A DNA stretch of 45,836 bases from a virus. The stretch covers positions 1 through 45,836 of the IMG/VR virus record IMGVR_UViG_3300045120_000461. One strand, written 5' to 3'. Shown piece after piece: positions 13,668-45,836 of the stretch; within the stretch, counting starts at the first letter, position 1, and every line of letters begins with the position of its first letter. A program made the position numbers and the translations under genes. The notes below the pieces were generated by a model. The model did no database searches, was not told the origin of the DNA, and saw only the letters and a program-made list of their open reading frames with translations.

Positions 13668-13864
13668 AGGATACCGCCCAAACCTGCAGGACCATCGGGC
13701 TCCACAACGCGGATTTCGAGCGGACCGAGAGACACCACCGTAACTTCCGTGAAGCATTTCAGGCAGCGGTTGACATTGAGGTGGGGCGGCCCGTCGAGTA
13801 CAGCGGCGTTTATGTACGACTCCTGCCCGCACGTGGGACACGCGATCGCAACGAATGTCCTCAA
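13664..13864 (-). CDS. Zinc-ribbon protein, 66 aa (TTG start)
   Basis: TTG at 13864 overlaps the sigma-factor stop as TTGA, giving LRTFVAIACPTCGQESYINA. CPTC (residues 9-12) and CLKC (about 34-37), 21 residues apart, form a clear zinc ribbon. The C-terminus (VTVVSLGPLEIRVVEPDGP) is a beta hairpin. It could act as a small nucleic-acid-binding partner. Its place directly after the sigma gene suggests co-expression, not a proven link. Confidence 0.7.
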   Translation of the reverse strand: MRTFVAIACPTCGQESYINAAVLDGPPHLNVNRCLKCFTEVTVVSLGPLEIRVVEPDGPAGLGGIL

Positions 13865-14541
13865 ATCGCGCCTTCTTCCCAGAACCGCGTTTCCACCTTC
13901 GCCCGCGCCTCGGCGAGCTTCGCCCGCGTCCACGTCGGCGACATGCCGACCGCTCGCGCCACGGCGCGAACGGGTTCGCCCGCGAGCTGGGCGCGCAGCA
14001 CGCGCCGCTCCACGTCGGGCAGTTCGTCGAGCGCCGCCGTCAGCATTCCGCGGATCTGCTCGCACTCCACCATGTGATCGGGCAACGGACCGGGATCGCG
14101 ATCGAGCGCCGGCGGAAGCCAGCCGTCCTCGCTGCGCAGCGCCTGCAGCGATACGTTCGCTTCCTCGCGGTACGCTCTGCGCTTCTGCGAGTCGATGATC
14201 GCGCCACGCACGCGGAAGTAGGCGAACGATTCGAAGCCAACGGCGCTGGCCTTCGCGGGATCGAACACCGCCGCCGCGCGCACGAGGCCGAGATGACCGG
14301 CCTGCGTGAGGTCGTCCAACTCTATATGAGCAGCGAACATGGGGCGCACATCGCGCGCGATTCTCTCGACCATCGGCATGAGCGAAATAATACACTTCTC
14401 GCGCTGCCAGCGCCGCCAGGCGCCCTTTTTCCCAGCAATTTTAGGGTTTTCGCCCGTATGTTTATGATTCGATTGACGCGCGTGCAAGACGGCGAAATCC
14501 CAGAGCCGGACGGCGAGGGAGTATTTCGCCGCCCGCGTCAT
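13861..14541 (-). CDS. Sigma-70 family RNA polymerase sigma factor (FliA/SigF-like), 226 aa
   Basis: Directs RNA polymerase to a chosen promoter set. Region 2 spans about residues 53-125: LMPMVERIARDVRP, then IELDDLTQAGHLGLVRAAAVFDP (core binding and start of the -10 helix), and GFESFAYFRVRGAIIDSQKR (region 2.4-like). Region 4 spans about 168-222 with LDELPDVERRVLRAQLAG and the helix-turn-helix VRAVARAVGMSPTWTRAKLAEAR. There is little room for region 3, as in small alternative sigmas. The start at 14541 is supported by TAATG overlap with the gene before it; ATG 14379 would remove only the basic first 54 residues. It lies just before the packaging genes, so control of late transcription is likely (inference). 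Confidence 0.85.
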   Translation of the reverse strand: MTRAAKYSLAVRLWDFAVLHARQSNHKHTGENPKIAGKKGAWRRWQREKCIISLMPMVERIARDVRPMFAAHIELDDLTQAGHLGLVRAAAVFDPAKASAVGFESFAYFRVRGAIIDSQKRRAYREEANVSLQALRSEDGWLPPALDRDPGPLPDHMVECEQIRGMLTAALDELPDVERRVLRAQLAGEPVRAVARAVGMSPTWTRAKLAEARAKVETRFWEEGAI

Positions 14542-15708: not shown

Positions 15709-15923
15709 GGGGAGCGCCCTCTGCGAACCGTGCGCACGGTTCTTTCGTGGCCGAAACGGGAACCGTGCGCACGGTTCTTTCGTGCGGACGATCACGAAAC
15801 GCGGTTTTTGGGGGCCGTTCGAGGGACTTCGTGGCCGTTTTGGGGGTGAGTTCGTGGCCGATTTGGGCGGGGGGATCGATGGGTCGGGGGGGTCCATAGG
15901 TCGGCGAAAGCGCCGACGCTGGC
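15709..15923. promoter_or_regulatory. Intergenic control region with palindromes and tandem repeats
   Basis: This 215-base gap breaks an otherwise overlapping operon. It holds two 18-bp palindromes (15725-15742 and 15760-15777), three copies of TTCGTGGCCG (15744, 15828 and 15851; the last two are 23 bases apart), and a 7-bp stem with AAAG loop at 15900-15917 just after the stop of 15924-16169. I see no clean -35/-10 pair. It is likely an operator or attenuation site for the downstream genes, including the sigma factor and terminase. Confidence 0.55.
15725..15784. repeat. Two 25-bp direct repeats, each with a perfect 18-bp palindrome
   Basis: Copies at 15725-15749 and 15760-15784 are identical. 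Each starts with the palindrome GAACCGTGCGCACGGTTC and ends CTTTCGTG on the plus strand. The centres are 35 bp apart, a little over three helical turns. The copy nearest the gene ends just before the Shine-Dalgarno of the 15708 start, so a bound dimeric regulator, or an RNA hairpin, could block expression. Confidence 0.75.
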
Positions 15924-16169
15924 TTAGAGGCGGACCGCGATCGGCGCAATCATGCCCGCCGGATCGGTCCCGATGCGGAAGAAACGCTGCAGCGGATCCG
16001 GCTCGTCGAGGAATTCGAATTCGATCATGTGCAGCCCGCCCGCCGCCGGCGCGAGAGCAAGCATGTGCTTTTCGGCGAGAGCTTCCAGCTCGTCGCCCGA
16101 TTCAGACACGGTGATGAGTTCCTCGAACTGCATCACCCCGCCGATGAACCCGCGAATCGCGATTTTCAC
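15924..16169 (-). CDS. Small hypothetical protein, 81 aa (GTG start)
   Basis: GTG at 16169 overlaps the upstream TGA as GTGA, giving VKIAIRGFIGGVMQFEELIT. A beta-alpha pattern continues (VSESGDELEALAEKHMLALAPAAGGLHMIEFEFLDEPDPLQRFFRIGTDP). The longer Arg-rich frame to 16301 is a shadow. The GGLHMIEFEFLDEP-x-RFFRIGTDP segment has the look of a conserved small phage protein, but I cannot name it. A hairpin follows its stop. Confidence 0.7.
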   Translation of the reverse strand: MKIAIRGFIGGVMQFEELITVSESGDELEALAEKHMLALAPAAGGLHMIEFEFLDEPDPLQRFFRIGTDPAGMIAPIAVRL

Positions 16170-16663
16170 GCCCGAAACCGCCACGCGGCTTTTTTCCCGC
16201 TGCCGACGTTCATCGCGAACTCGGCGCCGCCGCGGGCCTGAGCGAGAAGCCAGGACTTCGGTAGTCCCGACGCCTCCGCGGCTTCGTCGAGCGTGAGCCA
16301 CTTGCCCACGGTGCGCGGCGGCGACGGGAACGCGGCGGCGAGTCGCGCAAGATGGGCCGCGAGCCCCGCGAACGGATCGGACGCGGCAGGACGCAACGCG
16401 AGCGAGGGCCCAGGGACCGCGGGCGCGATCGCGCCGTCTGCCGGCGTGGCGCGGTGTACCGGCGTATTGATGTCGCGCTTCAGCGCTTCGACTTCGGCGC
16501 GGCGGAACACGGCCGTCTTTCCGTTGGGGCCCTGGACGTACGCGATTCCGAGACGGCCGCGCGCAACCATCGTTTCGACCGTGCGCTTCGACTTGCCGAG
16601 GTATTCGCAGACCTCGGGCTTCGACATGGTTTCAGATGCTGCATTCGCAGCGCGGGCGGGCAT
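16166..16663 (-). CDS. Helix-turn-helix DNA-binding protein (excisionase/MerR-like), 165 aa
   Basis: Start MPARAANAASETMSKPEVCE at 16663; ATG 16627 (MSKPEVCEYLG) is an alternative. Residues 13-62 form a winged helix of the excisionase/helix-turn-helix_17 type: MSKPEVCEYLGKSKRTVETM, then RGRLGIAYVQGPNGKTAVFR and AEVEALKRD. A second helix-turn-helix-like stretch lies at the end (KWLTLDEAAEASGLPKSWLL, residues 116-140), so the protein may carry two DNA-binding modules joined by an Ala/Pro linker. It could regulate the palindrome region 400 bp downstream, or act as an excision factor. Both are inference. Confidence 0.75.
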   Translation of the reverse strand: MPARAANAASETMSKPEVCEYLGKSKRTVETMVARGRLGIAYVQGPNGKTAVFRRAEVEALKRDINTPVHRATPADGAIAPAVPGPSLALRPAASDPFAGLAAHLARLAAAFPSPPRTVGKWLTLDEAAEASGLPKSWLLAQARGGAEFAMNVGSGKKAAWRFRA

Positions 16664-18641: not shown

Positions 18642-18847
18642 TCGTATCTGTCCATCGGTACATCTGCGGAGTGATAGCGCTCCTTCACCATCCTGCGAAG
18701 GCTTCGCCTGAAGATATCCAGCACATCCATTAAATCCCCGAAATCGTCAAGGTTTAGGCCATCTATGTTGCCCGTGATGTTGAGAATGCCCCCGCTGGGG
18801 AGCGGAAACGAGAGGAATGTCTTTGTGGTGCGTTCACTCGCGCTCAT
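18638..18847 (-). CDS. Small hypothetical protein, 69 aa
   Basis: ATG at 18847 overlaps the DnaA-like gene stop as ATGA. The protein MSASERTTKTFLSFPLPSGG has a short strand pair (ILNITGNIDGL), then an amphipathic helix (LDDFGDLMDVLDIFRRSLRRMVKERY). The function is unknown. The in-frame stretch upstream (to 18907) lies inside the previous gene and is not counted. Confidence 0.65.
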   Translation of the reverse strand: MSASERTTKTFLSFPLPSGGILNITGNIDGLNLDDFGDLMDVLDIFRRSLRRMVKERYHSADVPMDRYE

Positions 18848-19272
18848 GCCGATTTCTCCTGGTGAAACAGTTCCCGCTGCTCGGTTGTGCGCATTCCGGC
18901 GGCGCACAGTTCCTCAACCTCGCCGGCCAGCTCCTCGATTTGCTTCGACTGGTCCGCGATCGTGCGCCCCTGCGACGCGATGATGCGCGCCTGGCGGACT
19001 AAGGCGCGCTCGAGACTGTCGGGCGCCGTCGCCGTATAACGCCTGTCCGGAACCGGGCCGCGGCTGTATCTCGCGATGGCGTGAATAACCGTCGTGTGAT
19101 GCCGCTGAAACAGCCGGCCAATTTGCGGATAGCTCATTCCCAGTTCCTCGTGGCAGCGCACCATCGCCTCGCCGCGGGCCTGGACAAACTTCGCCTCACC
19201 GCCCTTGATGAGCATGTAGTGCGTGATGCCGTGGGTCGCGCAAACCTCCATCTGGATCTGCCGTGCCGTCAT
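18844..19272 (-). CDS. Stand-alone DnaA domain IV-like protein with coiled coil, 142 aa
   Basis: Residues 4-70 resemble domain IV of DnaA, the part that binds DnaA boxes. IQMEVCATHGITHYMLIKGG corresponds to the I-x-x-x-VA-x-x-Y/F-I-x2-x-L-L-S start. RGEAMVRCHEELGMSYPQIG and RLFQRHHTTVIHAIARY match the signature GxxFxxRDHTTVxHA, with H in place of the usual D. No ATPase domain is present. Residues 88-130 form a coiled coil (SLERALVRQARIIASQGRTIADQSKQIEELAGEVEEL), so it is probably a dimer. It may bind the DnaA-box-like site in the neighbouring initiator gene, or compete with host DnaA. Confidence 0.8.
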   Translation of the reverse strand: MTARQIQMEVCATHGITHYMLIKGGEAKFVQARGEAMVRCHEELGMSYPQIGRLFQRHHTTVIHAIARYSRGPVPDRRYTATAPDSLERALVRQARIIASQGRTIADQSKQIEELAGEVEELCAAGMRTTEQRELFHQEKSA

Positions 19273-19511: not shown

Positions 19512-20854
19512 GCGCGGGCTCTCATGATTTTCTGCATCGTTGCGCGTCTTTCTTCGGCCTCCGCTTTGCGCGCCGCTGCCAGCGCGGCTTCGGTCGCTCT
19601 GCGGCTGGCCTCGCGTTCATCGTACGCAGCCCGTTCTTCGTGGTCAACGGCGGGGGGCACTTCCGGTTTTTCCGGCAGATTTGAGGGCGGCGGGGGCGCT
19701 TCGGTTTTCGCTGCGCGGCGCTTTTTCGTGACGGACTCGAAAGCGCGATCGTCCTCGGCCTGGAGCAGTGCTTCGAGCGGCGAAACGGGAGCGGGAACGG
19801 CGGGCGGAACGGGTTCGGGAGCGGGATTGGCAGTGGGTGCCGGCATTTCCGTTACTTCCGCTTTGCGTTGCCGCTCCAGTTCCACGCGCTGCTGGCACTG
19901 GGCCACGAATGGCCGGTTTGCATTGACCCACCGGATGATTTCGTCCGCGAAACTCTTGGCCAGCAGTTGAGGATTGAAGTGATAGGAGGGGCGGGTGGTG
20001 CGAAAGTCGCCGGCTTTCCAATGCAGGAAGCGTACGATCACTTCGGCAGGCAGGCGCAGTTTTTCGTTGACCTTCAGGATCAGGTCGGTCGGTCCGTCCG
20101 TCCGTGCTCGCTCTCCGCACGCAAGCTCCATTTCGAGATTGAGCATATCCCGCGAAACCGAGAATGGTCCAGTTTCGAAAGGGTCCAGTTTTTGGACCCT
20201 TTCTCTACCTTCCGAAGTACTGACCGACGGACTTTTTAGTCCGTCAGTAGTGTCTAAAGTATGTAGGGTCCAATTTCTGGACCCTTTCTCCGCGTAAGCA
20301 TCTTTGCTCTCAACGGATGAGTTTTCCACAGGGGTCCAATTTCTGGACCCTTTTTCTGGAAAGGGTCCAATTTCTGGACCCTTTTCCGGGGCCGAAAGGG
20401 TCCAATTTCTGGACCCTTTTTTCCCCTGGACGGTGGCCAGATTTTCCCCTGTCTTCCATCGGTCAATTCTGGCTTTGACCGCGAGCCAGTCGATCTCGTA
20501 CTCGACGATCTGCTTCCGGCCGCCGCCGGTGCTCCGCCGTCGCAGTACTCCGTTCGGCGTCTTCGCCGGGTCTTCCGGGTCGATGGCGAGCTCGGCGTTG
20601 GCCTGGTACCAGCCAGCACGCGACAGTCCGCACGGTCCGCGCACCCATTCCAGACTTTGCGTCGAGTAGATGCCTTCCAGCGCCTGGCTTTCGCTGTGCT
20701 TGTCCGATTCTCTGCCGTAGCCAATAGATCGTTCGGCGTGGAATAACAGTGCCCGCATCTGAGCGCAGCTCCAGATGTCGAAGCCAAACTTAATCAGCGC
20801 CATCATGGCGGCGAAGTTGGATTGATAGCCGGGCGGTGCGGTGCGAGCGTTCAT
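19508..20854 (-). CDS. Replication initiator protein with embedded iterons, 448 aa
   Basis: Residues 1-130 look like a winged-helix phage replication protein, comparable in layout to lambda O: NFAAMMALIKFGFDIWSCAQ, then an ERSIGYGRESDKHSES turn, LEWVRGPCGLSRAGWYQANAEL and KQIVEYEIDWLAVKARID. Residues 140-240 are a linker of repeated KGSRNWT / KGPEIGPF peptides, encoded by five inverted-repeat iterons. Residues 245-320 contain LILKVNEKLRLPAEVIVRFL and NPQLLAKSFADEIIRWVNANRP. The Pro/Ala-rich C-terminus ends in a charged helix. As in lambda, the origin appears to lie inside the initiator gene. It opens the minus-strand replication operon. Confidence 0.8.
   Translation of the reverse strand: MNARTAPPGYQSNFAAMMALIKFGFDIWSCAQMRALLFHAERSIGYGRESDKHSESQALEGIYSTQSLEWVRGPCGLSRAGWYQANAELAIDPEDPAKTPNGVLRRRSTGGGRKQIVEYEIDWLAVKARIDRWKTGENLATVQGKKGSRNWTLSAPEKGPEIGPFPEKGSRNWTPVENSSVESKDAYAEKGSRNWTLHTLDTTDGLKSPSVSTSEGRERVQKLDPFETGPFSVSRDMLNLEMELACGERARTDGPTDLILKVNEKLRLPAEVIVRFLHWKAGDFRTTRPSYHFNPQLLAKSFADEIIRWVNANRPFVAQCQQRVELERQRKAEVTEMPAPTANPAPEPVPPAVPAPVSPLEALLQAEDDRAFESVTKKRRAAKTEAPPPPSNLPEKPEVPPAVDHEERAAYDEREASRRATEAALAAARKAEAEERRATMQKIMRARA
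20181..20416. repeat. Five iteron-like inverted repeats, candidate replication origin
   Basis: The 19-bp core GGGTCCARTTTYTGGACCC occurs at 20181-20199, 20266-20284, 20332-20350, 20363-20381 and 20398-20416, usually flanked by AAA and TTTT. Each copy is an inverted repeat GGGTCCA-N5-TGGACCC. A half-site GGTCCAGTTT lies at 20166. Start-to-start distances are 85, 66, 31 and 35 bp. TTTTCCACA at 20322-20330 is one mismatch from the DnaA box TTATCCACA. An 8-bp stem with TTTT loop (GACGGACT/AGTCCGTC, 20225-20244) lies between copies 1 and 2. Together these match a phage origin inside the initiator gene. Confidence 0.8.
20322..20330 (+). promoter_or_regulatory. DnaA-box-like site TTTTCCACA
   Basis: It differs by one base from TTATCCACA. 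It lies just before iteron 3, two bases from its core, and 1 kb upstream (in transcription) of the phage DnaA domain IV gene. Its placement among the iterons makes it more than a random match. Binding is untested. Confidence 0.5.
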
Positions 20855-21224
20855 ACTCGCCCCGCCGCGGATAGAGACTCCCTTTCCTTTTCTTCGGAAC
20901 GCGCCATCTTCGCGTTCCCCCTTGTGCTGAATGCGGAAGGTGCGTCAGAATAGACGGCACGTCAGCATTGTTTCCATGCTGGCCCTTCCAGGGTGCCCAA
21001 ATTACGGCATTCGCGCTGCTTTTTCCGGGAAGATTCGGCAGCGTGATGCCGTTAAGAGGTGGGCTCTGGAGGCCCTCTTCGGTTGGGGCCGTAGTCACGG
21101 CAGCATAATAAGAGATTATCGACCATGTCCATTTTGCGACTGGTCTGCATCGTACTCTATTTTCCTTGCCATTGTCGAGAATCGCGGTGTAAGATTCAGG
21201 CAGTTTTCTGCCCGCGGTTCCATA
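20855..21224. promoter_or_regulatory. Divergent intergenic region between initiator and integrase genes, rich in inverted repeats
   Basis: This 370-base region separates the minus-strand replication operon from the plus-strand integrase. Visible structures: a two-part hairpin (ACGGCAT...ATGCCGT, 21004-21052, enclosing CGCTGC/GCAGCG), AAGAGG/CCTCTT at 21054-21079, GCCGT-AGTC-ACGGC at 21088-21101, and ATAAT/ATTAT at 21105-21119. It should hold both promoters and possibly operator or recombination sites. No clear -35/-10 pair was seen. A 102-residue minus frame and the upstream extension of the integrase frame both read as non-coding. Confidence 0.5.
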
Positions 21225-22205
21225 ATGTCCGTTGAGAGCGATTTCGATCAGCTTTGTCTGTTCGATTTTGGAGGTGTCGACTTGTCAGCTCTGCGAGAGC
21301 GGCGTGACGCATTGCTCACGTCGGTACGCGCCAAACGCACTATCTCCGCCTATGCGTGCGACTGGAGCCAGTTCGACCGCTGGTGCCGCATGGCAGGCCG
21401 CCAAACGCTGCCGGCCAGCACCGAAACGCTGCAGCTCTACGTTACCTGGATGTTTGAGCAGGGGGCCAAGGTAACGACAGCCGAAAGGCGCGTTTCCGCG
21501 ATTGCGTACATCCACCGCGGCGCCGGATTCCCTTCCCCGCTGGAATCCGGGTTGCGCGATATCATCAACGCCACGCGTCGCGAGCGCAAAGAACAACCGA
21601 TCGGCAAAAAGGCCCTGGACCCGCTTACGCTGGTCCGCATCGCCCGCAAGTGCGATTGCGGTACCGCGCTGGGGGCGCGCGATCGCGCTCTGCTCATTCT
21701 CGGTTTTGCGACCAGCTTTCGGCGCGAGGAATTGGCGCAGTTGCAACTCTCCGACCTGACATTCGAGCGCCACGGGCTAGCCATCCTGCTGCGCTACTCC
21801 AAGCGCGATCAGACGGGCAAGGGCCGTCTGCTGGGCGTGTGGGCGGGCAAACGGGCCGAAACCGATCCGGTGCGCGTGATGCGCGCCTGGTTGCGGCATC
21901 GCGGAAGCTGGGAAGGTCCCCTGTTCTGCCGTATCCAGAATGGCGACGTGGTACTGCACCGGCCGATCACCGGCGACGCCGTGAACCACGCCGTCAAGCG
22001 CATGATTGCCGCTGCCGGTATCGATCCGGATCGATACGGAGCGCATTCGCTGCGCGCCGGCGCCATCACCGCCGCGGCCGAGCTGGGCCGCAGCGATCAG
22101 GAAATCGTCGGCCTGAGCGGGCATGGAAATGTCAAAATGATTCGCACCTACGTGCGCAGCGCACGTCTGTTCTCGGGCCGCAATCCCCTGGCTGGTGTGC
22201 TCTGA
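21225..22205 (+). CDS. int: Tyrosine recombinase / phage integrase, 326 aa
   Basis: Catalyses site-specific integration between attP and attB. Start MSVESDFDQLCLFDFGGVDL at ATG 21225 fits the usual length; the frame stays open to 20931 but that part does not look like protein. Residues 25-110 are the core-binding (SAM-like) domain (VRAKRTISAYACDWSQFDRW...). The catalytic domain shows Arg in GFATSFRREELAQL (near residue 165), Lys in YSKRDQTGKG, H-x2-R in AHSLRAG (near residue 275), His in GHGNV and the nucleophile Tyr in MIRTYVRSAR (near residue 308). All key residues are present. It is on the opposite strand from both flanking operons. Confidence 0.9.
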   Translation: MSVESDFDQLCLFDFGGVDLSALRERRDALLTSVRAKRTISAYACDWSQFDRWCRMAGRQTLPASTETLQLYVTWMFEQGAKVTTAERRVSAIAYIHRGAGFPSPLESGLRDIINATRRERKEQPIGKKALDPLTLVRIARKCDCGTALGARDRALLILGFATSFRREELAQLQLSDLTFERHGLAILLRYSKRDQTGKGRLLGVWAGKRAETDPVRVMRAWLRHRGSWEGPLFCRIQNGDVVLHRPITGDAVNHAVKRMIAAAGIDPDRYGAHSLRAGAITAAAELGRSDQEIVGLSGHGNVKMIRTYVRSARLFSGRNPLAGVL

Positions 22206-23133: not shown

Positions 23134-23784
23134 TTAGCTCCTTTGCAGGCGCCACGTTTGCGCCAGCGTGCAGCCGGGGACTTCGACGCCGCCCTGCAGC
23201 GCGGACTTAATGAGCGTCTTGTCGGGCGCCGGCTTCGGCGGCGCCGGCGTCCGCAGGTATGCGGCCGGGACTGCGGCGGCGTCCGCGATCGCGACCGACG
23301 GCGGGTTCTTGCGCCGGGCGAGCGTGGCGACATTGCCCTCCAGCTTGGCGAGCTGCGACGCCTCCATGATGGCCATAACGTGTAATTCGAGGTTTTCCCG
23401 CATCCGCGCGAACCGAGCCCGCCGCGCGTCGAGCCGTTCTATCTCGCGCTTCGCGCCGGCTTCGAGCGATTCCCACGTCGCCAGCGCCGCCGAGACGTTA
23501 TCGACCTTGGCGCGCGTGCCGGCCAGCGCCTCGATCAGCATTTTCGAGAGTTCGTCGCGCGCCTCGTCGGTCAGTTCGCCGTCGTCTTCGAGCTTTTCAA
23601 TCGTTTCGATTATCAGGTCGATGCCCTCGACCCTTTCGCGCAGGCTGCGCTTCGGCACGATCGAGAGCCGCGCCGGCGTGACGACCACGACATCCCCCTG
23701 TTCGTCGTCCCATGACGGATCGGGTTGCGGCTCCGGACCGAACAGATCCGGAGCGCCGTCGAGCAGTTCAGTAACAGGTGTCAT
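23134..23784 (-). CDS. Siphovirus Gp157-family protein, 216 aa
   Basis: After a variable N-terminus (residues 1-65) the protein has the Gp157 pattern. An acidic helix leads into AKVDNVSAALATWESLEAGA and a basic coiled coil (KREIERLDARRARFARMRENLELHVMAIMEAS). Then come LEGNVATLARRKNPPSVAI and the closing signature PDKTLIKSALQGGVEVPGCT-LAQTWRL. This family is widespread in phage early regions, often near recombination or single-strand DNA-binding genes. A DNA-metabolism role is likely but its chemistry is unknown. ATG at 23784 overlaps the stop of the small secreted-protein gene (ATGA). Confidence 0.8.
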   Translation of the reverse strand: MTPVTELLDGAPDLFGPEPQPDPSWDDEQGDVVVVTPARLSIVPKRSLRERVEGIDLIIETIEKLEDDGELTDEARDELSKMLIEALAGTRAKVDNVSAALATWESLEAGAKREIERLDARRARFARMRENLELHVMAIMEASQLAKLEGNVATLARRKNPPSVAIADAAAVPAAYLRTPAPPKPAPDKTLIKSALQGGVEVPGCTLAQTWRLQRS

Positions 23785-23936
23785 TTCTTTCCCTCCTTGC
23801 AGTTCGATTTGTCGATGTACTTCTTGTGGCTCTTGCCGTCTTTCGTGACGACGATGTAGCAGCCGCCCCGCGGCCCCGTCTGCGGCGTTTGCGCGCTCGC
23901 GACCGCGGCGGCCAGCGCGAGTAACAGGGTTCTCAT
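23781..23936 (-). CDS. Small secreted protein with signal peptide, 51 aa
   Basis: ATG at 23936 overlaps the upstream stop as ATGA; ATG at 23942 (MPM...) is an alternative. MRTLLLALAAAVASAQTPQT is a standard Sec signal peptide with cleavage expected after ASA. The mature part, about 35 residues, is Lys/Gly-rich with two Cys (GGCYIVVTKDGKSHKKYIDK-SNC) that could form a disulfide outside the cytoplasm. A secreted peptide in an early phage operon is unusual. It might modify the cell surface or act on neighbours, but the target is unknown. Confidence 0.75.
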   Translation of the reverse strand: MRTLLLALAAAVASAQTPQTGPRGGCYIVVTKDGKSHKKYIDKSNCKEGKK

Positions 23937-24481
23937 CGGCATCCTTTCGCGTCGATCATGACGGTCGCCGCGAGACAGCGCACGTCTTCGCAGCGGATTT
24001 CGAGCGCCAGGCCCTGGCGCTGGGCGTAGGCCCGCGCTTCGAGCAGCACGTCGATCGCGTCCTTGTACGCAGCCATGAACCGCTGCGACTGCGGCGTGAT
24101 CGGCGGGGGCGCAGCAACGGGCGCAGCGACGCGCTGCGCGGGCGGCTGCGCGGGTGGCGCTTCGTACGCCGGCGGCGCCGGGGCTTCGAACGGCGGCAGC
24201 GGCACGATGCGCAGGTCCGTCTTGCCGCGTCCGAAGCGCAGCACTTCGAACTGCTGGCGGGGCGCGACACGCGCATTCAGCTCGTCCGCTATGATCTGCG
24301 GCACGTACCACGAGCGCCCGTCCACGAGGCGATAGCGGACTTCGGACGGACCGAATTCCGACGGCGCCATCTCGCCGGGGATCGCCGCGATCGCGATGAT
24401 CTCCGCCGCGCCCTGCGCCGGCGCGAACTTCCCCGAGCGGGGCAGGGCGCCCGGTTGCGGGCTGTAGGGTTGGGTAGACAT
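23933..24481 (-). CDS. Early-operon hypothetical protein, 182 aa
   Basis: ATG at 24481 overlaps the previous TAA as TAATG. Residues 20-95 form a strand-rich domain (AEIIAIAAIPGEMAPSEFGP, RYRLVDGRSWYVPQIIADEL, FEVLRFGRGKTDLRIVPL), followed by a Pro/Ala linker and a C-terminal helix plus strand (RFMAAYKDAIDVLLEARAYA..., EIRCEDVRCLAATVMIDAKG). The N-terminal part could be an OB-like or barrel fold, which would suit a single-strand DNA-binding role beside the Gp157 gene. That is speculation from shape only. Confidence 0.7.
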   Translation of the reverse strand: MSTQPYSPQPGALPRSGKFAPAQGAAEIIAIAAIPGEMAPSEFGPSEVRYRLVDGRSWYVPQIIADELNARVAPRQQFEVLRFGRGKTDLRIVPLPPFEAPAPPAYEAPPAQPPAQRVAAPVAAPPPITPQSQRFMAAYKDAIDVLLEARAYAQRQGLALEIRCEDVRCLAATVMIDAKGCR

Positions 24482-24735
24482 TAGCGTGCCCTCCGATTGC
24501 GGCGGCGAGCGGGCGCCGTGCGAACGAAGAGGCCGTTGCCGATGCAGGCCAGCGCGGGCGCAAACGCGGGGTGGACGTGCGTGTTGCGCGCGGGCGCGGC
24601 CTTCAGCGAATCGCGTTCGTCGTCCTCGTCGCGGCGAAGCTGTTCGTCGTGCTCGCGATCGGCGTCCTCCGCCGCTTCGGCGCGCAGCGCAGCGCGCTCG
24701 TCGTAGTCATAGTTGTATCGTGATTTGAAAGACAT
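24481..24735 (-). CDS. First gene of the early minus-strand operon, 84 aa, unknown
   Basis: ATG at 24735 has an excellent ribosome site, GGAGGAA five bases upstream. The protein MSFKSRYNYDYDERAALRAE is highly charged (EAAEDADREHDEQLRRDEDDERDSLK), then basic at the end (RTAPARRRNRRAR). Probably disordered in its first half. No family recognised. It lies directly downstream of a promoter with a palindromic operator. Confidence 0.7.
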   Translation of the reverse strand: MSFKSRYNYDYDERAALRAEAAEDADREHDEQLRRDEDDERDSLKAAPARNTHVHPAFAPALACIGNGLFVRTAPARRRNRRAR

Positions 24736-24850
24736 TTGGGTTCCTCCAAACTAATCTTACCGCTAAGCATTGCTTAGCGCAATGCATAAATGCAATAATA
24801 TAGTTAGCGGCAAGAACTTCTTTCCGCTAAGGATGTTACGATGAAACTTC
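24736..24850. promoter_or_regulatory. Divergent promoter-operator region
   Basis: An AT-rich 115-base region between two divergent transcription units. Minus strand: -35 TTGCGC (24782-24777), 17-base spacer, -10 TAAGAT (24759-24754), with the start expected near 24747, at the Shine-Dalgarno. The spacer is covered by the perfect palindrome CGCTAAGCA-T-TGCTTAGCG (24761-24779). Plus strand: -10 TATAGT (24799-24804) with a weak -35. TTAGCGG (24804-24810) and CCGCTAA (24824-24830) form a second inverted pair, 13 bases apart. Four half-sites of CCGCTAAG type therefore overlap both promoters, as in a repressor-controlled switch. Confidence 0.7.
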
Positions 24851-25006
24851 ATGGCGAAGAAGCAAGACTCAGCGATGACGGAGGCGGCGAAAGCGATGGG
24901 CAGCCGGGGCGGCAAAGCCCGCGCGAAGTCGTTAACCGCAAAACGCCGGAAGGAAATCGCGTCGGAGGCGGCGAAGAAGCGATGGGCAGACAAGGACAAG
25001 GTGTGA
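24851..25006 (+). CDS. Small basic KGG-type motif protein, 51 aa
   Basis: ATG at 24851 gives MAKKQDSAMTEAAKAMGSRG, then GKARAKSLTAKRRKEIASEAAKKRW and TGA at 25004. The GGKARAKSLTAxRRKEIASEAAKKRW block matches a widespread small Lys/Arg-rich motif of phage and bacterial proteins, thought to bind DNA. An alternative frame from ATG 24841 (58 aa, Gly/Glu-rich) is also open but looks like a shadow. Being the first gene on its side of the divergent operator region, it could act in regulation (inference). Confidence 0.7.
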   Translation: MAKKQDSAMTEAAKAMGSRGGKARAKSLTAKRRKEIASEAAKKRWADKDKV

Positions 25007-25007
25007 A

Positions 25008-25259
25008 ATGACAGACCAGCAACTGCTGACGCTGGCGCTGGCGATCATCGTGCCGCTGTCCATGTTGCTCTACAGCAACAGCCGAATTACCGATGTCCGG
25101 GGATCGGTCACGGACGCGAAAGAAACGCTGCGCGCTGAAATGCAAACGCTGCGCACTGACATGCAGAAGAACCACGCCGAACTGCTGGCGAAGTTAAACG
25201 CGATGGAAGCGGCCTTCGAAGCCAAACTGAAAATCCACGAGCTGGAGCATCACCGCTAA
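25008..25259 (+). CDS. Membrane-anchored coiled-coil protein, 83 aa
   Basis: ATG at 25008, one base after the previous TGA. Residues 5-22 (QLLTLALAIIVPLSMLLYSN) are a transmembrane helix at the N-terminus, followed by a long coiled coil (TDAKETLRAEMQTLRTDMQKNHAELLAKLNAMEAAFEAKLKIHELEHHR). Similar one-helix plus coiled-coil proteins occur in many phages. Holin, spanin-like or superinfection roles are possible, but none is shown. It converges on the giant gene, whose stop is 4 bases away. Confidence 0.75.
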   Translation: MTDQQLLTLALAIIVPLSMLLYSNSRITDVRGSVTDAKETLRAEMQTLRTDMQKNHAELLAKLNAMEAAFEAKLKIHELEHHR

Positions 25260-25262
25260 ACG

Positions 25263-28200
25263 CTACTGCACCGCCAGCGCCTTGCGCAGCTCCTGCGCCG
25301 TCTTTAAGCGTTCGGCGGGGGCTTCTGACTTCAGCGCCGCCGTTCCCTTTTTGAGCAGCATTCCACGCAGGCGCCGGCGTTCGTCCGCCGTCGACGCCCG
25401 GTAGACCTTCAGCGCGTCCCCAATGGTGAGCCGCGCAAACGCCGCCTCCAGCGGTGATTCGTGCGCCCGCTGCCGCGCCGCTTTTACGTCCGCCGTCCGC
25501 AGCTTGCCCGCCTTCATGGCGTCGAGAACTTCTTTCGGCACCGGTTTGTTATTCCGCAGCGCGCGCACGAGCGACTGCCGCAGATCGCGCCGTTCGGCTG
25601 CTTCGGCGGGCCTGCCAGGTTCATCGCCCGTCCGTTCGGCCGAAAGTTTCGCGGCCAGCCGTTCCGCCGGCGTTTTGTCCAGATCGGAGGGCGCGGGACT
25701 GACGCCCACGAACTGTTCGCCGCGCGTTGAGAGCGAACCGCCAAGCGCCGTTTCGCGCTGGTAGTTGCGGACGCCAATGGGAATGGCCTGTTTGGCGGCG
25801 TGCTTTGCCAGGTCCAGAAGCTGCGTGACGAGCGGATCGTCCGGGTTGCGGATCTGGTTGCCGTAGAAGTCTTTGTTATGCGCCATTTCGGCGAGTGCGC
25901 TCCAGATCGGCGCCGCCTTGTTTGCGATCGTCCGCGCGGGCTGCGTCGCGTAGTGGTAGACGTCCTTGACGTAGGTGGGCCACGAAACACGCTGCGGGTG
26001 CCCCGCCTCGTCCGTCTCGCCGTTCTTCGGGAAGAAGTAATCCTCAATCTCGTCCGGACCCTTGCCCGTCTTCAGATACTGGTAGACCGCGCTCATCACC
26101 GCGTTCACCGTCACGAGGCCCAGCAGATAGCTCAGGCGGTTCAGGTTGACCGGCTTGCCTTTGAGAGCGTTGTATGGCTGCAAGCCGATATCGCCGATCG
26201 CGCCGCCGACTTCGCGCAGCGTGCCGAGGTTCCAGCCGACCGAGCGCACTGCGATCATGGCCAGATCCTTGGCCATCTTGTTCCAGAACAGATTGTCGTA
26301 CGTCATTTCGCCGAGACGGTTTTCGACCGAGTTCCAGTCCTGGGTGAGCACGCGCCGTGCCTCGTCGAACGTCGCGTTCGGCCCCAATTCATCCAGATGG
26401 AACCGGGCCAGATCGGCGAACGCGCCGAGCTTCATGCGCGGAACCGCTTCGTTCATCAGCAGGTTGCTCAGGTATTCCACGCCGGCGAAGGGAGCCCGCA
26501 GCGCCGCGCCGATGATGTTGCCGTGCCGCAGCGCCTCCCGCATCTTCTCCGCAATTTCGGTGCGGTACATCTGATCCATGCGGGCACGGCCGCCCGCCGT
26601 GACGAGATTGTCCACGAGGTTGCCGATCACGGCGCCCTGCGAACCGGGCCGATACCACTCGCGCAGCAACTTGTCACCCTTCAGGTAGGTTGTAAACGCC
26701 GCGGCGGGCGTCTGGGCGAAGTACTTTGCCGCTTTGATGGGCCTGCCCCGCATGAGCGCCTGATAGCCGAGCGCCGCTTTGGAAACCGTCGTGTCGGCCG
26801 CCGTGAACCCGAGATGGAACGCCGACAGGCCAAGCTGAAACTGGTTGAGGACGTTGTTCAGCCCCGCGATCGCGCGATAGCCGGCATACTGCCGCAGCCC
26901 AGGCGACAGGTAATTGTTCATGATCCGGGCGGCGCCCTCCGGAGCGTAGTAGTGCCCGCGCACGATTGTCTCGCCCGCCGCGTTGCGTCCGTAGACCGTC
27001 GAAATGGAATCGTCGATTCGCGTCCACCCGTTCGGCGGCGGCCGGTTGCCGCGGAAGAATTTCGCCAGTCCCCGCTGTTTCCACTCCGCCAGCGTCTCGT
27101 GCGCCATCACGTAGCGGTCCATCTCGTGGACCTTCAGCAGCGTCATGGTGACGGGGTTGTCGCTGATTGGTTCGAGGCCCACCGCAAGGCCATCGGCGAT
27201 CGTCGGCAGCGACCGTTTCTTCAGGAACGCTTTGCCGCCTTCGAGCGGGCGTTTGCCGAAGAACGCCTGGAACATTGTCTTCGCCCGCCTGGGGTTCTTC
27301 CAGATGTGCGGAAAATAGTCTGTGTAGAAGTTCTTGAGTTTGCCTGTGCCGAGCGATTGCACGTCGGCCCGTTTGTCGTCGAGCAGGGTCCGGAGCCGGA
27401 AGGCGATCGCATCGAGGTCCGCGTTCTTCTGCCGCTGGCCCAGTTCCATGCGGTCGATGAAATCGAGGTTTTCCGCCGCCGGCTGCCGCGCGAAGTACGC
27501 CGAAGCCTTCGCCAGCGTGTCCCGCGCCCGATCGGCCTTGCGGGCCAACTCCGCCAGCTTGCCCCGCAGCACCAGCGAAGCGTCTTCGGCGTCGCGGTCG
27601 AACAACGTGGGCGCCAGCGCCTTCAGGGCATCGCGGCCCGTCTCGCGCATCCCCTGCGCAACGTCGCGCAGCGCGGGTGCAACGTCCGTTTGCGCGAACT
27701 GCGTCAGGCCGAGCGTCAGAAAATCGAGCAGAGCGCCGCCCGCCTCCGGATTCTTCTTCGGCGGCGTTTCGAGCGCGGGCGCGTTCGGATCTTCGCTGGC
27801 CCCGTCCGCGTCCGGTTCGGGCATGTCCGTTTCGGCTTCGTCGATCACGGCCGCGTTGGCGTCGAGATCGAGCGCCTTTGCGATTTCCGCCTGCCGCTTC
27901 ACGAGGCCGTCGAGCGTTGCACCGTCCGGGAACGGCGTCGCGGCTTCCACGCGCAGCCGGGTCAGCTTTTCTTCGCCCTTTTCGATTTTCTGCCGGTAGT
28001 CGCCGGCCAGACCGTCCAGGCCCCGCAGTTGCGCGTCGAGCGACTGCATCGTGCCCTGCCCGGACTCCGGATTCAGGTTGAAATAGTGGAGCGCCTCGCC
28101 CCGGAACGAGGTTCGCGGCGCCTGGGACGCACCCATACCCCGTGTCTCGATCGTGAATCCCCGGTACGTTCCCGCCTTGTGGGTGGTGTCGTCGAGGCGG

Positions 28201-31200
28201 TTCCCGATCGCGAATTCATTCAGTGCCTCGCCCGCCGCCTTCCGTTCGGTGTACTTCTTCCCGTTGACCGTGATCGACCAGTCATCCGGATCTTTGGACG
28301 TATTCGTATCACGCGTGCGGATGTCGGCTTCCAGCTTCGGCAGCCAGTTCTTCGCGCGGGCAATCTCCTGTTCCATCCGCATCGTTTCCCGCCGCGCGTC
28401 GTCCTGCTTTATCGCGTAGTCCGATTCGAGCGCCGAGAGCCGAAAGACTTCAGCATCCACCGTCGCCTTCTCCTTCACCAGCGGATTGCCCGTCGCCGCG
28501 GCTTCGGCTTCCGACGCCCCGAGCGAGTCCTGAGAGATGTCTTCGGCTTCGCGCAGCCCAAGATCGCCGCGCATCACCTGATTGATGAATTTGGCCTTTC
28601 GCGCCACCATCCCCCACATGTAGGCGTCGAACGACGGCGCCGTGACGTAGCGGACGATGTGGACTTCCGGGTTCGTATTGCCCTGGCGCAGAATGCGCCC
28701 CTCGCGCTGTTCCACGTCGCGCGGACGCCAGGGAACATCCAGATGGTGGAGGGCAATCAGACGCTTCTGTACGTTCGTGCCCGCGCCCATCTTGGCGGTC
28801 GAGCCGATCGTGATGCGGATTTCGCCGTCGTTCATCTTCTGCTGCCAGACCGCTTTTTTCGCGTTGGTGTCGGCATCGTGAACAAAGGCGATTTCTTCCG
28901 CCGGCACGCCTTTCAGCGTGAGCTGGCGTCGGAGTTCGTCGTAGACGTTCCACCCTTCACCGGGCGTCGAAAGATCCGAGAACACAAGCTGCGTGGTGCG
29001 CTTCTCTTTACCCTGTTCCCACAGTTCAAAGATCCGGTTCGCCGCGAGCGTGACCTTGCCGCCCTCCGGATCGCGCGCCATTCCGACCAGGCGCAGATCG
29101 AGCGCTGCCTTGCGCCCGTCGCTCGTCACCTTCAGCATGTTGTCTGCTTTGGGGTTGACGTTGCCGCGCTTAATACGCTGAATGCGGCCCATGATCGAGC
29201 CCGGCTGCCAGCCGCCGCGCTCGTCCTTCGCCATGATGAAATCGCGCAGCGCCTGGGTGGCCGGAATGGTGACGGTTTCGTACTTTCCTTCCGCCAGTTT
29301 CGGAACGGGCAGCTTCAGCATCTCGGCGGTTTGCACGTCGGCCACGGCGCGGAACAGGTTTTGCAGTTCGGGCAGGTTGGTGAACTTCGCAAATCGCGTG
29401 TTGGTGCGGAAGCCGGCGCCATCGGGCGAGATTTCCTGACCGGTCACTGTCTCGCCGAAAACCTGCGCCCATGCATCGAACATGCTGACGCCGGCCTCGT
29501 CGAGAGCTTTGGGCGCGAGGTAGCGGAGCATGGTGTACATTTCCGCGACCGTGTTTGAGATCGGCGTCCCGGTGGCGAACACGAGGCGCCCGTTCGCTTT
29601 ATCGGTGACATGGCGCGACTTCATCAGCATGTCGAAGGCGCGGTTCGATTCCGTGTTCGGAATGCCGGCGATGCGTGTGGCCCGCGTCGTGAAGTAGAGG
29701 TTCTTGAACAGATCGGCCTCATCGACGAAAAGAGCGTCAACGCCCATCTGTTCCCACGTCAGCGCGTCGTCCTTGCGCGTGTCGGCTTTCTCGCGCAGTT
29801 TGGCTTCGAGCCGCTTCTTGGACTTTTCCAGTTCCTTGCGCACCCGTTTGTCGGCTTTGCCGCTCGTCGCAGCCATCTCGCGCAGCGCCTCTTCAAGCTG
29901 GTCGATTTCCTTCTGGAGAAACATATTGAAGGTTTCGTCCGAGACGGGAATCAGGCCGAGCGCGTCGTGCGAAACGATGGCCGCGTCGTAGTTGCCGGTC
30001 GCAATCTGTGCCATCGCCTTCTGCCGGTTGCCCTTTTGAAACGTAGTTTCGTCGGCCACGAACAGATTGGCCGCGGGGTAGAGATGCTGGAATTCCCGGC
30101 CAAACTGGCCCACCACGTTTGCCGGCACGGTGATGAGGGGCTTTTTGGCGAGTCCGAGACGGCGCAGTTCCATCGCCGCCGCCGCCATCTCGTACGTCTT
30201 ACCCGCCCCGACGACGTGCGCGAGCAGTGTATTCAGGCCCGAGGAGACGACGCGCCAGATCGCGTTCTCCTGGTGCGGCCTGAGCGTGACCGAGGGATTC
30301 ATGCCCCGGAACGTCAGGTGCGAGCCGTCGTACTGCCGGAGCCGCGTTCCGTTGTACGTTTCGTTGTAATACTTTTCGAGCGCGTCCCGGCGCGTTGGGT
30401 TTTCCCAGAGCCACTGGCTGAACCGGTCGCGGATTTTCTTCTGCGCTTCCTGCGCCGCCGCGGTCGCGCGGGGATCGACGACGGTTTTATCCTCCGATAC
30501 CCGGACGCGCACCGTCGGCACTTTCATGTTGAGCGCCTGTTCGATGAGCTTGTCGGCCGGCATTCCGCCGCCCGCCCACTGCGACTGGTTCTGCACGGTT
30601 TGCGTGTTGTCTATCTGGACTTCCCACAGCGCCAGCGGCTTGGCGTAAGCGACATTCACGCCGCGCGGCTGGACGCCGAGCAGTTCGGTGATGAACTGCT
30701 TCACTACCGGCGCCGGAATCCACGGCGAACCGAGACGGCCCTTGATTTCTGTGCCGCCCTTCAGATCGGGCGGCTTTACGGCTTCGAGCGCCGCAATGTT
30801 GCGCTCGTACGAGGGATCGGCTTTCGCCATGTCCCGCGCCTGGGCGAGCTTCTGGCGGACGTCGCCGGAAAGGTACTGGTCTGCGGTCTGCCACTGCTGC
30901 GTCTCCGGATCGCGGTAGATGCGTTCGCCCAGTTCGTCCTGCAGCGCCTCCGGATCGAGGCCGGTAAGCTGCGCCATCCGCGTCCAGTTGAGGCGCCCGT
31001 ACTCGTTGAGCGAAATGGTCAGGGCTTCGAGAGCGTTGCCCGCCGACTGAACGGGTTTGTAAGCCTGCACGACGGGCTCGGTGAAGATGGCTGTTTTTTT
31101 CGCCGTCTTCGTTTTGCGGTCGTACTTTTCGAGCGCGAGAAGAGACGGCGCGTCCGGATCGCCGCGGAAGGCGCGGACGTTGGCGTCGTCGTTCAGATTG

Positions 31201-34200
31201 CCGTATTTCTTTGCGAAGGAGTCGTAGACCTTCCCGAGCGCCTTCCGCGCCGCCACCTGTTCCGCTTCCGGCTTGTCCTCCAGTTGCGTGCGGAAAACCT
31301 CGTGCATCGCATCGCGCACCGGGATCATGCCCTTTACGCGCGCTGCCGATTCCCGGCCCGCTTCAACCGGTTCGAGCGTTTCGCCCGAGCGCCTTATCAG
31401 TTTTCCGTCCACGATGCCGAAGGCGTTCTGTTTGAGATGGCCGGCTTCGGGGTATTCGGCGGCTGCGATCGCATCGGGTTTAAATGCGTCCGCTGTGGGG
31501 CGTTCGGTCAGCACGTTCCTGGGCAGGCGGGCGATCGCGCCGGCCAGGGCTTCCGGCGTCACCTGGCCGAGCACGTTGATTTCAGGACCGAAGCGACCGC
31601 GATTGCCCTTCACCGTTCCGAGAATCATTTCCGGGTGGCGCGTGTAGTAGTCGTTCTGATACGGGTTGTCCTCGTCGCCCGGAAACAGGTTGGTGGGGGA
31701 GGCCTTGACGAAGTCTTCTACCTCCGATGCGTCTCCGGGCAACCGCTTCTGAAGGAAAACGATGTCGGTAACGACCGTCGTGCCGGCGTTTTTCTCAAAT
31801 GCGGTCTGCGGCAGCCGGATGGCGCCGAGGAATTTCGCCTCGCGCTGGATGTACTCGCGCACGGCGGGGTCTTTGCCGTCCATCGTGTAGCGCGAAGTGA
31901 CGAAAGCGACGATGCCGCCCGGACGTACTTTGTCGAGCGCCTTGCCGAAAAAGAAATCGTGAATCGAGCCGGTGAGGAAGCGGCGCGGGCCTTTGAAATC
32001 GCGGTCGAACACGCCGTAGTTGCCGAACGGGACGTTCGATACTGCGAGGTCAAACCAGTTATTCGGGAAGCGGGTCCGCTCGAAGCCCGTCGGAAATACC
32101 GCCGCGTTCGGGTAAAGCAGGGCGGCGATGCGGGCCGTGACGGGATCGAGTTCGACGCCCGAGAGCTTCGCGCCCGACTGAAGATCGTCCGGCATCAGGC
32201 CGAAGAAATTGCCCGAACCCATCGAGGGTTCGAGCGTAGACAGTCCGGGCCGCGCGCCGAGATGCCGAACCGCGTCCCAGATCGCGCGAACCACCGGTTC
32301 AGATGTGTAGTGCGCGTTGGGCGTCGTCGCCGCGGCTGTTTTCCATTCTTCCGGCGTCAGCGTGTCGCGCAACTCGCCCGCTGTCTGTCTGAGAGCCGCC
32401 GTCGTCTGGTAGTGCTCGAACACTTCGGGCAGAGCGCCCCATCCGGTGTATTTGACGAGCTTCTTCTGTTCGTCGAGCGTCGCCGGCCGGCCTTCCGCTT
32501 CCACCTGCTTCATGGTGCGGATGGCTTCGAGGTTCGCGATCGCCTTGTCGGACAGCGATCCTTCGCCGAGATGATCGGCGCCGGTGATGCGGTAGCCGGT
32601 GAGTCTGGGGCGATTGTCTAAGGTTCGGGGTGGTCGGGGAGGTCGGGTAACGCGGGTGACGGGACCATCCAGATTTCCCTCGTCAGTTCGTCCGCCTGAT
32701 CCGGGTTCAGGCCCTGGCCGATGTACTGGCTGTAGGCCCGGTTCGCCTGGTCCGCCGTGGACTTCAGCACTTGCTGGAGCTTGCCCTGGCTTTCCATTTG
32801 CTTTACCGCTTCCGGCTGCGCCTGGTTCCAGTGTTCCAGTATCTGCGCCTGAAACGGTGTCAGTCCCGTGAGGTTCGCCACCCTTCGATTGTCGCTCAGG
32901 TTTCGGTTCCGGCGCCGCGGTAACCTCCGCAGCGGCGGGCTGCGCGGGTGTTTCAACGGGTTGCACGGGTGGGGCATCGACTTCTGCGACAGCCTGCTTG
33001 TACGGCGTGCCCGCCTTTACCTTGTCGCGGATCGCCCTGGCGCGCGTGACGTTGGGCTTCTCGGCTTTCGCCGCCCCGCGCACGCCTCCGGTCGCGAACG
33101 TGGGGAGCACGTACTTCGTGTCCGGTTCGTTCGGCACCTGCGGTGTGACGACTGGTTTCTTCGGCGCGGCGGGCGGCTCCGCTACTTTCGTTTCGGCGGG
33201 CGCGACGGCGGCTGCGGGTTCCCCGCCGCCGCGTTCAGGGACGCGAGCAGGTTCGGCGGGCGTTTCGCGTTCGGGCGCGGGCGGTTCGGGCGGGGTGGTG
33301 GTCGTTTCATGGGGTGGCTCCTTCGTTTCGGGTTCGGCGCGTTCTCGTGTAAAGCGTGAGGGCGTCCCGTTGATCTGTGAACTGAGCTTGGGATACTCAT
33401 CGGGATGGACAAAAACGTCGCCGCTTTCATCTCCGGGGGGGCGCCATGTCTCCGGGGGAAAATCATCCCGATGTGCGGTTAGAATCTCCCCACCCGGTCC
33501 CTCCCGTTTGGCATAGGAAAGAGCCTCGCCGCGATGCTGCGTCCACCACGGCGATGGCGGCTCAGCAGTCCCGGCCTTACTCTTTCTCACTCCCTGGTAA
33601 TAGTGGCTGTTTATCGGCTTCGTTTCCGGCGCGATCGGCGCTGGCGCGGGCGTTTCGCCCTTCGCGGCGGGCGCGGGCGGCGCAACGGGTTTAACGGGTT
33701 CCGGCGCGACGGGCTCCGCGACCGGCGCAGCGACGGGCTGCGCGGGTTCTTCGACGGGTTGCGCGGGCGTTTCGACGGGTTGCGCGGCCTTCGGCTTCGC
33801 GGGCGCGGGTTCGCCGCCGACGCGCCGGCCCGTGATCGTGTACTCGGGCGCGGCGGACGCTTCGGCTTTCGGCGCGGCCTTTGCGAACGTCTCTCGCGCG
33901 CCTTTGACCGCGTGCCGTCCGGCCGCGGTCGCGAGGCCGAGCGTCGCCGCCATTTCGGTGAGCGTTTTCGTCGCCCCTTCGGTATCGCCCTTTTTGATTT
34001 GCTGAATCAGTTGCGGCGACTGCTTCAACGCGCTGTGAATCATGTCGAGCGAGAAGCCGCCCGACACGAGCTTCTGAATCCGCGGCATGTACTTCGCGCC
34101 GACTTCGGCGAGCCGCCCCACCGCGGGCTCGGAGAGCTGGGAGAGCTTGCCGGCGCCGCCGAGCCCGCCCGTCGCCAGCAGGAGCGCGATGCTTTTCGGC

Positions 34201-45552: not shown

Positions 45553-45836
45553 TCAGGCGAGTACTGGCCGTTTCGCCGCCGGCGCCGGCGCGACCTTCAG
45601 CAGGCGCGAGCGGTCGAAGTTCCGCAATTCAAAGGGAAGCGAATCATAGCCCCCTCCGCGGTTCTTCGCGCGCACGAAGTCGGCGCATTTCTGCGCCGCG
45701 TCGAGGAACGACGCCAGCAGCGGCAGCGTCTTCGCCAGCTCCGCCGCGCCTTCCACCTGGCGCAGCCTCGCGATCGCGTAGTTCACCAGTTCCGGGTGGT
45801 ACTCCTCGGGAATCTCAGGAGTTTGAATATCGAGCA
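45553..45836 (-). CDS. Adaptor-like structural protein, C-terminal part (continues from 1-679)
   Basis: Bases 45807-45553 complete the gene that starts at 679. They encode EEYHPELVNYAIARLRQVEG, then AAELAKTLPLLASFLDAAQKCADFVRAKN, and end PAPAAKRPVLA before TGA at 45555-45553. This is the helical C-terminal domain. The bases to 45836 repeat the window start. Reading the window without the join would give a false start at 45786. Confidence 0.8.
   Translation of the reverse strand, partial: LDIQTPEIPEEYHPELVNYAIARLRQVEGAAELAKTLPLLASFLDAAQKCADFVRAKNRGGGYDSLPFELRNFDRSRLLKVAPAPAAKRPVLA
45807..45836. repeat. Terminal direct repeat, right copy (30 bp, one mismatch)
   Basis: It matches bases 1-30 except for T at 45828 against G at 22. 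See the left copy. It shows that the two ends belong together. Confidence 0.85.

Follow-up and report, generated by a model that had tools for sequence, protein, structure and literature searches.

Introduction

In the CI/Cro immunity region of lambda-type phages, divergent promoters lie under multiple dyad operators, flanked by the early operon and, opposite to it, by the gene for a small regulator. Arc and Mnt are small phage repressors of the ribbon-helix-helix type, which have about 50 residues and use dyad operators. Some environmental phages encode an integrase but no recognisable repressor. One of them, a soil phage, is represented by the viral record studied here (IMGVR_UViG_3300045120_000461), whose full stretch of 45,836 nucleotides is called the window (G000 in the searches).

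The gap at 24736-24850 of the window, which separates an 84-aa ORF heading the leftward early operon from a rightward 51-aa KGG-type ORF, resembles the lambda-type region in that multiple dyads of one type overlap divergent promoters and in that an integrase is present. These promoters are weak in the window and strong in most relatives. The window differs from the lambda-type layout by a candidate regulator of only 51 residues with no recognised DNA-binding fold, by the absence of HTH_3 and S24 matches, and by dyads that are arranged in pairs 17 bp apart. With Arc and Mnt the system shares the dyad operators and the protein size of about 50 residues, whereas the monomer model of the window protein contains two helices and no strand and the protein has no Pfam match.

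KGG stress-repeat proteins (PF10685), i.e. GsiB and YciG, are, like the window protein, small and basic and have a GG motif, but share no more with it. Searching Pfam at E<=0.001 returned no family for the window protein, neither PF10685 nor the P63C domain (PF10546). Proteins with the latter domain are similar at the N-terminus, and the P63C protein of locus L281 has the same operator upstream. The window protein, in contrast to the proteins of L185 and L281, does not contain the P63C domain and stops after the KGG-like segment. A further relative, phrog_2384 of unknown function, is a 338-position profile, compared with the stand-alone segment in the window. As in other members of the operator-binding family proposed below, a predicted cognate dyad lies upstream of the protein's own gene or operon.

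Results

Dyads and promoters of the gap

The following features were located in and next to the gap (no strand is given for symmetric sites):

24481-24735, minus strand: 84-aa acidic ORF, first of the leftward early operon
24754-24782, minus strand: weak sigma-70-like early promoter TTGCGC-17-TAAGAT, 7/12 consensus positions
24755-24768: predicted operator O1, TCTTACCGCTAAGC, 9/10 skeleton positions, covers the minus-strand -10
24761-24779: perfect 19-bp palindrome CGCTAAGCATTGCTTAGCG, made up of the O1 and O2 arms that face each other
24770-24804, plus strand: candidate rightward promoter region TTGCTT-18-AATAAT, 8/12, overlaps TATAGT at 24799-24804
24772-24785: predicted operator O2, GCTTAGCGCAATGC, 9/10, covers the minus-strand -35, centre 17 bp from that of O1
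24802-24815: predicted operator O3, AGTTAGCGGCAAGA, 7/10, overlaps the plus-strand TATAGT, weakest copy
24819-24832: predicted operator O4, TCTTTCCGCTAAGG, 8/10, runs into AAGGA, centre 17 bp from that of O3
24829-24833, plus strand: AAGGA, ribosome-site-like, 7 nt upstream of ATG 24841, 17 nt upstream of ATG 24851
24851-25006, plus strand: 51-aa KGG-type protein, proposed repressor (upstream sites, covariation, locus sharing)

The original prediction had described four half-sites overlapping the divergent promoters. Indeed CCGCTAAG occurs there in two exact copies at 24760 and 24824 (plus strand) and two one-mismatch copies at 24773-24780 and 24803-24810 (minus strand), yet each of these is most of a full 14-bp dyad. 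Read as dyads, the repeats of the gap form four 14-bp copies of the skeleton GCTTNNCGNNAAGC with centres at 24761.5, 24778.5, 24808.5 and 24825.5, i.e. with a spacing of 17-30-17 bp. The copies are degenerate and agree with 7 to 9 of the 10 skeleton positions. Throughout the window, CCGCTAAG with at most one mismatch was not enriched (25 found, 36 expected). The extended motif TCTTNCCGCTAA was found three times in the window and all three copies were inside the gap; in shuffled sequences it occurred on average 0.01 times and such a cluster appeared in 0/100. Similarly, the summed score of 33 of the four-dyad cluster was reached by none of 200 whole-window shuffles (maximum 32) and by none of 2000 local shuffles.

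The perfect 19-bp palindrome within the minus-strand promoter was present as predicted. Dyads like it were found five times in the window compared to a shuffle mean of 1.5, such that the palindrome alone is less special. In the relative G018, O1 is kept as AGCTTACCGCTAAGCA and O2 as GCTTAGCGCAAGGC, but the two are 18 bp apart instead of 17 bp and their facing arms are separated by 2 nt instead of 1 nt. O4 is kept together with its flank as TTCTTTGCGCTAAGGATGTAAC, while an O3 counterpart was not evident in the G018 gap. Conservation of the palindrome and of the half-site spacing had been named as tests. The exact palindrome is lost in G018 and the spacing is altered there, while the dyads themselves are kept. 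Since the centre of the palindrome is enlarged by 1 bp although both dyads persist, we dropped the palindrome as a binding unit; it is probably not a unit in itself. Elsewhere in the window (15725-15784) an 18-bp perfect palindrome, GAACCGTGCGCACGGTTC, is found in two copies 35 bp apart.

Of the predicted minus-strand promoter, both elements (TTGCGC at 24782-24777 and TAAGAT at 24759-24754) and the 17-bp spacer exist, but the match to the sigma-70 consensus is poor. Likewise the plus-strand TATAGT is in place without belonging to a good sigma-70 match. A consensus scan at 9/12 between positions 23000 and 27000 returned no match. On account of this empty scan and the 7/12 agreement of the minus promoter, the view that both gap promoters are strong sigma-70 promoters was abandoned. 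G018 has the same weak promoter pair. A minus-strand transcript starting near 24747 would coincide with a GGAGG ribosome site (24747-24743) located 12 nt upstream of the ATG. On the other side of the gap AAGGA fits the ATG at 24841, which opens an overlapping frame, while the KGG ATG at 24851 lacks a ribosome-site-like sequence at the usual distance. G018, G019 and G006 likewise have an upstream ATG in this offset frame.

Related phages

Relatives with the same early region were found through terminase relatives (17 loci) and KGG relatives (9 loci). In seven phages including the window, the divergent gap before the KGG gene carries 2-4 dyads, whose sequences differ: G019 has GCTTGACGTGAAGC twice and two variants, G006 copies of TGCTTnCGnAAGCA, G002 three ATACGCA-N5-TGCGTAT-like copies, G003 ATCCATAGCGGCTATGGAT and two variants, and G004 a weaker dyad pair. 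The dyads of the relatives each adjoin a KGG-type gene, on the side opposite to the early genes where the sequence covers these. The position of the operators is thus conserved across these phages and their sequence is not.

On the strand divergent from the KGG gene, a sigma-70 match of at least 9/12 was found in 16/17 operator loci (0.84 expected) and one of at least 10/12 in 12/17 (0.12 expected). The window is the sole locus of the 17 that lacks a divergent promoter of at least 9/12; the position of its minus-strand promoter is homologous to that of strong promoters in relatives. By eye, a dyad is located inside the spacer of the divergent promoter in 12/17 operator loci (G002, G003, G004, G006, L188, L189, L200, L201, L206, L207, L209 and L213), which is the arrangement that the original prediction had pointed out for the window.

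A distant nucleotide search of phage records gave no match to the window, and nothing was found when viral contigs were searched for relatives through the tail of the 3177-aa protein or the Gp157 protein. Scanning the collection for TCTTNCCGCTAAGNAT returned at least 120 stretches, and each of the 80 listed had a single site. With one site only per stretch among the matches listed, these were attributed to chance and discarded.

Genome context

Further genes of the window that matter for the interpretation are:

13861-14541, minus strand: sigma-70-type factor of the phage, matching sigma regions 2 and 4, conserved in six relatives (G002, G004, G006, G012, G014 and G016)
16166-16663, minus strand: HTH_17/Cox-like protein, rival candidate binder (domain match)
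18844-19272: DnaA-C protein
20931-22205, plus strand: tyrosine integrase (PF00589, E 4e-15)
23134-23784, minus strand: Siphovirus Gp157/Mu Gam-like protein (profile match)
23933-24481, minus strand: 182-aa early protein; 7 other loci have a homologue close to the KGG gene
25008-25259, plus strand: 83-aa ORF whose N-terminus is hydrophobic and whose tail looks coiled-coil-like by eye
25263-34796, minus strand: 3177-aa DarB-like methyltransferase/helicase polyvalent protein

The side of the leftward early operon comprises genes for the Gp157/Gam-like protein, the DnaA-C protein, an HNH protein, the Cox-like HTH protein, the sigma factor and the terminase. Portal and capsid protein are also encoded in the window. 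Charged small ORFs similar to the 84-aa ORF occupy the same position in G002, G004 and G018. The 83-aa ORF is probably part of the same transcription unit as the KGG gene. For the 3177-aa protein an identity as N4-type virion RNA polymerase had been considered and was dropped in favour of the DarB-like family matches. Inside a 448-aa ORF, at 20177-20420, a 27-nt palindromic repeat, GAAAGGGTCCAATTTCTGGACCCTTTT, is present in five copies, which are possibly origin iterons inside an initiator gene. Since the window ends (1-30 and 45807-45836) share 30 bases with one mismatch, the record may be a complete or near-closed circular map.

The original prediction of a lysis-lysogeny or early switch agrees with the leftward early operon and the tyrosine integrase, and a role in lysogeny would follow from this layout. 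Its statement that no classical repressor gene is present held as well: the HTH_3 search of the whole record gave no match, while the same search was positive in 14/14 control genomes, and the Peptidase_S24 search was negative in 8/8 records including the window and positive in 10/14 controls. Neither domain was matched in G004, G006, G019, G072 or the integrated phage G071. In G018 an HTH_3 gene lies at a distance of about 3.4 kb, and G002 has a marginal HTH_3 match. A temperate lifestyle is in keeping with the integrase, the lack of any known repressor and the divergent layout. G071 is a KGG phage distinct from the window phage and spans positions 7834-55781 of a 79,446-base Solibacteraceae MAG contig, with a homologue of the 182-aa protein near its KGG gene. 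It looks integrated into a bacterial contig because bacterial genes flank it; on one side these encode LptC/LptD, a chaperonin and a large outer-membrane protein. This KGG phage, of 47.9 kb (L213/L234; L274-L277), is 99.998% identical to a viral contig.

The KGG protein

The AlphaFold model of the 51-aa protein consists of two helices (residues 11-27 and 30-49) and is of moderate confidence (pLDDT 76, pTM 0.43). The fold search with this model found no PDB match, and at the sequence level no PDB entry matched below E 0.3. No NCBIfam family was found either. The protein matches the N-terminal positions 5-39 of phrog_2384 with E 2e-5. In the titles and abstract openings retrieved from the literature no description of the KGG-type family as regulator was found; the literature matches to GGKARA were, judged by title, mostly papers on histone H2A. 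That no known DNA-binding fold supports DNA binding, the two-helix model being without PDB match, argues against the KGG protein as repressor.

Dyads upstream of KGG genes

A repeated-dyad score was calculated for the 200-base stretches in front of 67 KGG genes and for 287 control upstream regions from the same loci. Compared with these controls, the score was elevated for the 7 founder phages (p=4.6e-6) and for all 67 KGG loci (p=0.0018), and weakly so for the 60 non-founder loci (p=0.043). Scores of at least 24 were obtained for 16/67 KGG loci (15/66 without the duplicate L234, which is the same phage as L213) as opposed to 10/287 controls (Fisher p=2e-6). A strong repeated dyad was thus absent in 51/66 KGG loci. 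Among the distant KGG genes, perfect or near-perfect pairs are found for instance at L209, L207, L189, L201, L196 and L188. Left out were L215, whose frame was not open at the match, and L178, L179, L182 and L002-L004 as repeats (duplicating G018, G019, G006 and L180). KGG starts were mostly set to the nearest upstream ATG, such that in some host loci they lie too far downstream.

The only family present in all of 22 loci chosen for their operators, within about 4.5 kb, was the KGG family; the integrase and the 182-aa family ranked next with 8 of the 22 loci each. We then compared operators and proteins among the 15 loci scoring at least 24, for which the operator pairs had been chosen by the repeated-dyad score blind to the protein. 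For the window this choice gave the 19-bp palindrome and the O3-O4 centre instead of O1-O4, and was kept as scored. Between loci, the sequence distance of the operator half-sites correlated with that of the KGG C-terminal helix (r=0.35, permutation p=0.0022, n=15) and with that of the GGxARA segment (r=0.27, p=0.019, n=15), both values being uncorrected for shared descent. By eye, the four GGxATA proteins (G002, L189, L206, L209) go with TRCGCA operators, the two GGKARL proteins (L196, L201) with TACTAAG or a near match, and the pair of AMRNK proteins (G006, L207) with ATGCTTnCG. The exact site TGCTTNNCGNNAAGCA is located upstream of the KGG gene in 6/67 loci, the flanks being otherwise dissimilar by eye.

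KGG genes in bacterial genomes

We scanned 10 KGG-bearing genomes or records for exact TGCTTNNCGNNAAGCA. These came from 12 loci, of which two share one genome and L219 was left out. In total 13 sites were found compared to 5 for the reversed pattern. Nine of these are found 72-321 bp ahead of a KGG match, and a tenth (L281, position 624) precedes a P63C protein with KGG-like N-terminus (ORF 687-1784). The remaining three have no adjoining KGG gene in the stretches examined, and the exact site was absent from 3/10 scanned genomes. As these 10 genomes had been chosen through KGG, we additionally scanned 41 genomes drawn evenly from one family (G020 was known beforehand).

Across the even draw the site occurred at background level, with 23 sites compared to 32 for the control. 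A close KGG gene (E<1e-20) was found in four genomes, and every one of these contains a single site. In G020, G037 and G041 this single site is directly upstream of the KGG gene. In G032 it lies 1.8 kb upstream, which was not counted as a miss, as the site is at the head of a DarT-macro-KGG operon whose last gene is KGG. In the respective stretch (L278; contig 4, 190200-193200) genes for DarT, a macro-domain protein and KGG apparently form a single operon headed by TGCTTAGCGGAAAGCA. Of the KGG matches in the even draw, eight more distant ones have no exact site nearby, as would be the case if their specificity differs. A perfect TGCTTACCGGTAAGCA site was also seen in G034 (contig 1, 592605), a genome in which the KGG gene search found none.

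Discussion

Taken from sequence comparison, the gap is likely a divergent operator-promoter block of a temperate phage, in which the KGG protein would bind the four dyads and repress both promoters. Binding of the KGG protein to these dyads is probable, and its function as maintenance repressor is plausible. The 51-aa protein, presumably dimerising, would bind the four 14-bp dyads as a small oligomer. Occupancy of O1 and O2 would extend over both elements (-10 and -35) of the leftward early promoter and hold the operon for replication and packaging in the off state. Occupancy of O3 and O4 would cover the start region of KGG's own rightward transcript, resulting in negative autoregulation. The effect on the promoters would be repression rather than activation. 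Loss of the KGG protein, or its titration by an antirepressor, would release the early operon, and the acidic 84-aa protein is one candidate for such an antirepressor. Points that speak against this reading are the 51/66 KGG loci lacking a strong repeated dyad, the weak rank test once the founders are removed, the KGG-bearing genomes and distant KGG matches that lack an exact site, the degenerate dyads and weak promoter of the window, and the HTH_3 matches of G018 and G002.

For the binder the original prediction had left the choice between a flanking small gene and a distant HTH protein. We favour the flanking KGG gene because it is the sole gene shared by 22/22 operator loci, because operators covary with it and because chromosomal KGG genes carry the site.

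The reading that competes best, though we think it unlikely, is that the KGG protein binds the operators as a Cro-like or auxiliary autoregulator, while the true maintenance repressor is another protein or one of the host. The very small size of the KGG protein would suit such a role, as would the additional HTH_3 protein of G018 and the single-site chromosomal KGG genes, which resemble plain autoregulated genes, one of them in the DarT-macro operon. Against this stand the lack of HTH_3 and S24 matches in the window, G004, G006, G019, G072 and the integrated G071, and the dyads that by eye lie in the spacers of early-side promoters in 12/17 loci.

That the sites are instead bound by a distant phage protein or by a host regulator is improbable. 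DNA-binding domains suited to this are encoded in the window (HTH_17/Cox-like protein, DnaA-C protein, phage sigma factor). The HTH_17 protein, however, was found in only 4 (G002, G004, G006, G014) of the 10 relatives compared, some of which are fragments, and within about 4.5 kb no family but KGG accompanies each of the 22 operator loci. Chromosomal KGG genes have the same exact site, and a single host protein could hardly explain operators that differ between phages.

Very improbable is a role of the repeats as replication origin, recombination or packaging element: the AT-rich region, the repeated dyads and the phage-encoded DnaA-C-domain protein might suggest it, but the repeats inside the 448-aa gene are the better iteron cluster and the dyads of the relatives are flanked by divergent genes and mostly overlap promoter elements. 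That short matches clustered by chance in an AT-rich gap, as the degenerate sites and weak promoters could imply, is hardly credible given the shuffles and the conservation in G018.

Beyond the window, though with slightly less confidence than for the repressor-operator block, we think it probable that the KGG-type segment of about 45 residues (GGxARA..LTxxRRxEIAxxAAxxRW) defines an unrecognised family of sequence-specific DNA-binding repressors. It would act alone as phage immunity repressor, as regulator of a DarT-macro toxin-antitoxin-like operon, as product of a chromosomal gene under its own control in Bradyrhizobium and relatives, and as N-terminus of P63C proteins. Its protein-operator code would be readable, with R.KEIA[SAK].AA and GGxARA together corresponding to TGCTTA/TGCTTG half-sites, AMRNK to ATGCTTnCG, GGKARL to TACTAAG and GGxATA to TRCGCA.

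If this holds true, the lysogeny switches of environmental phages that have an integrase but no recognisable repressor would become predictable from sequence. A family of about 50 residues that is annotated only as hypothetical in phages and bacteria would gain a function, and its operator code would represent protein-DNA recognition in an unusually compact form, with a fold that may not have been described before.
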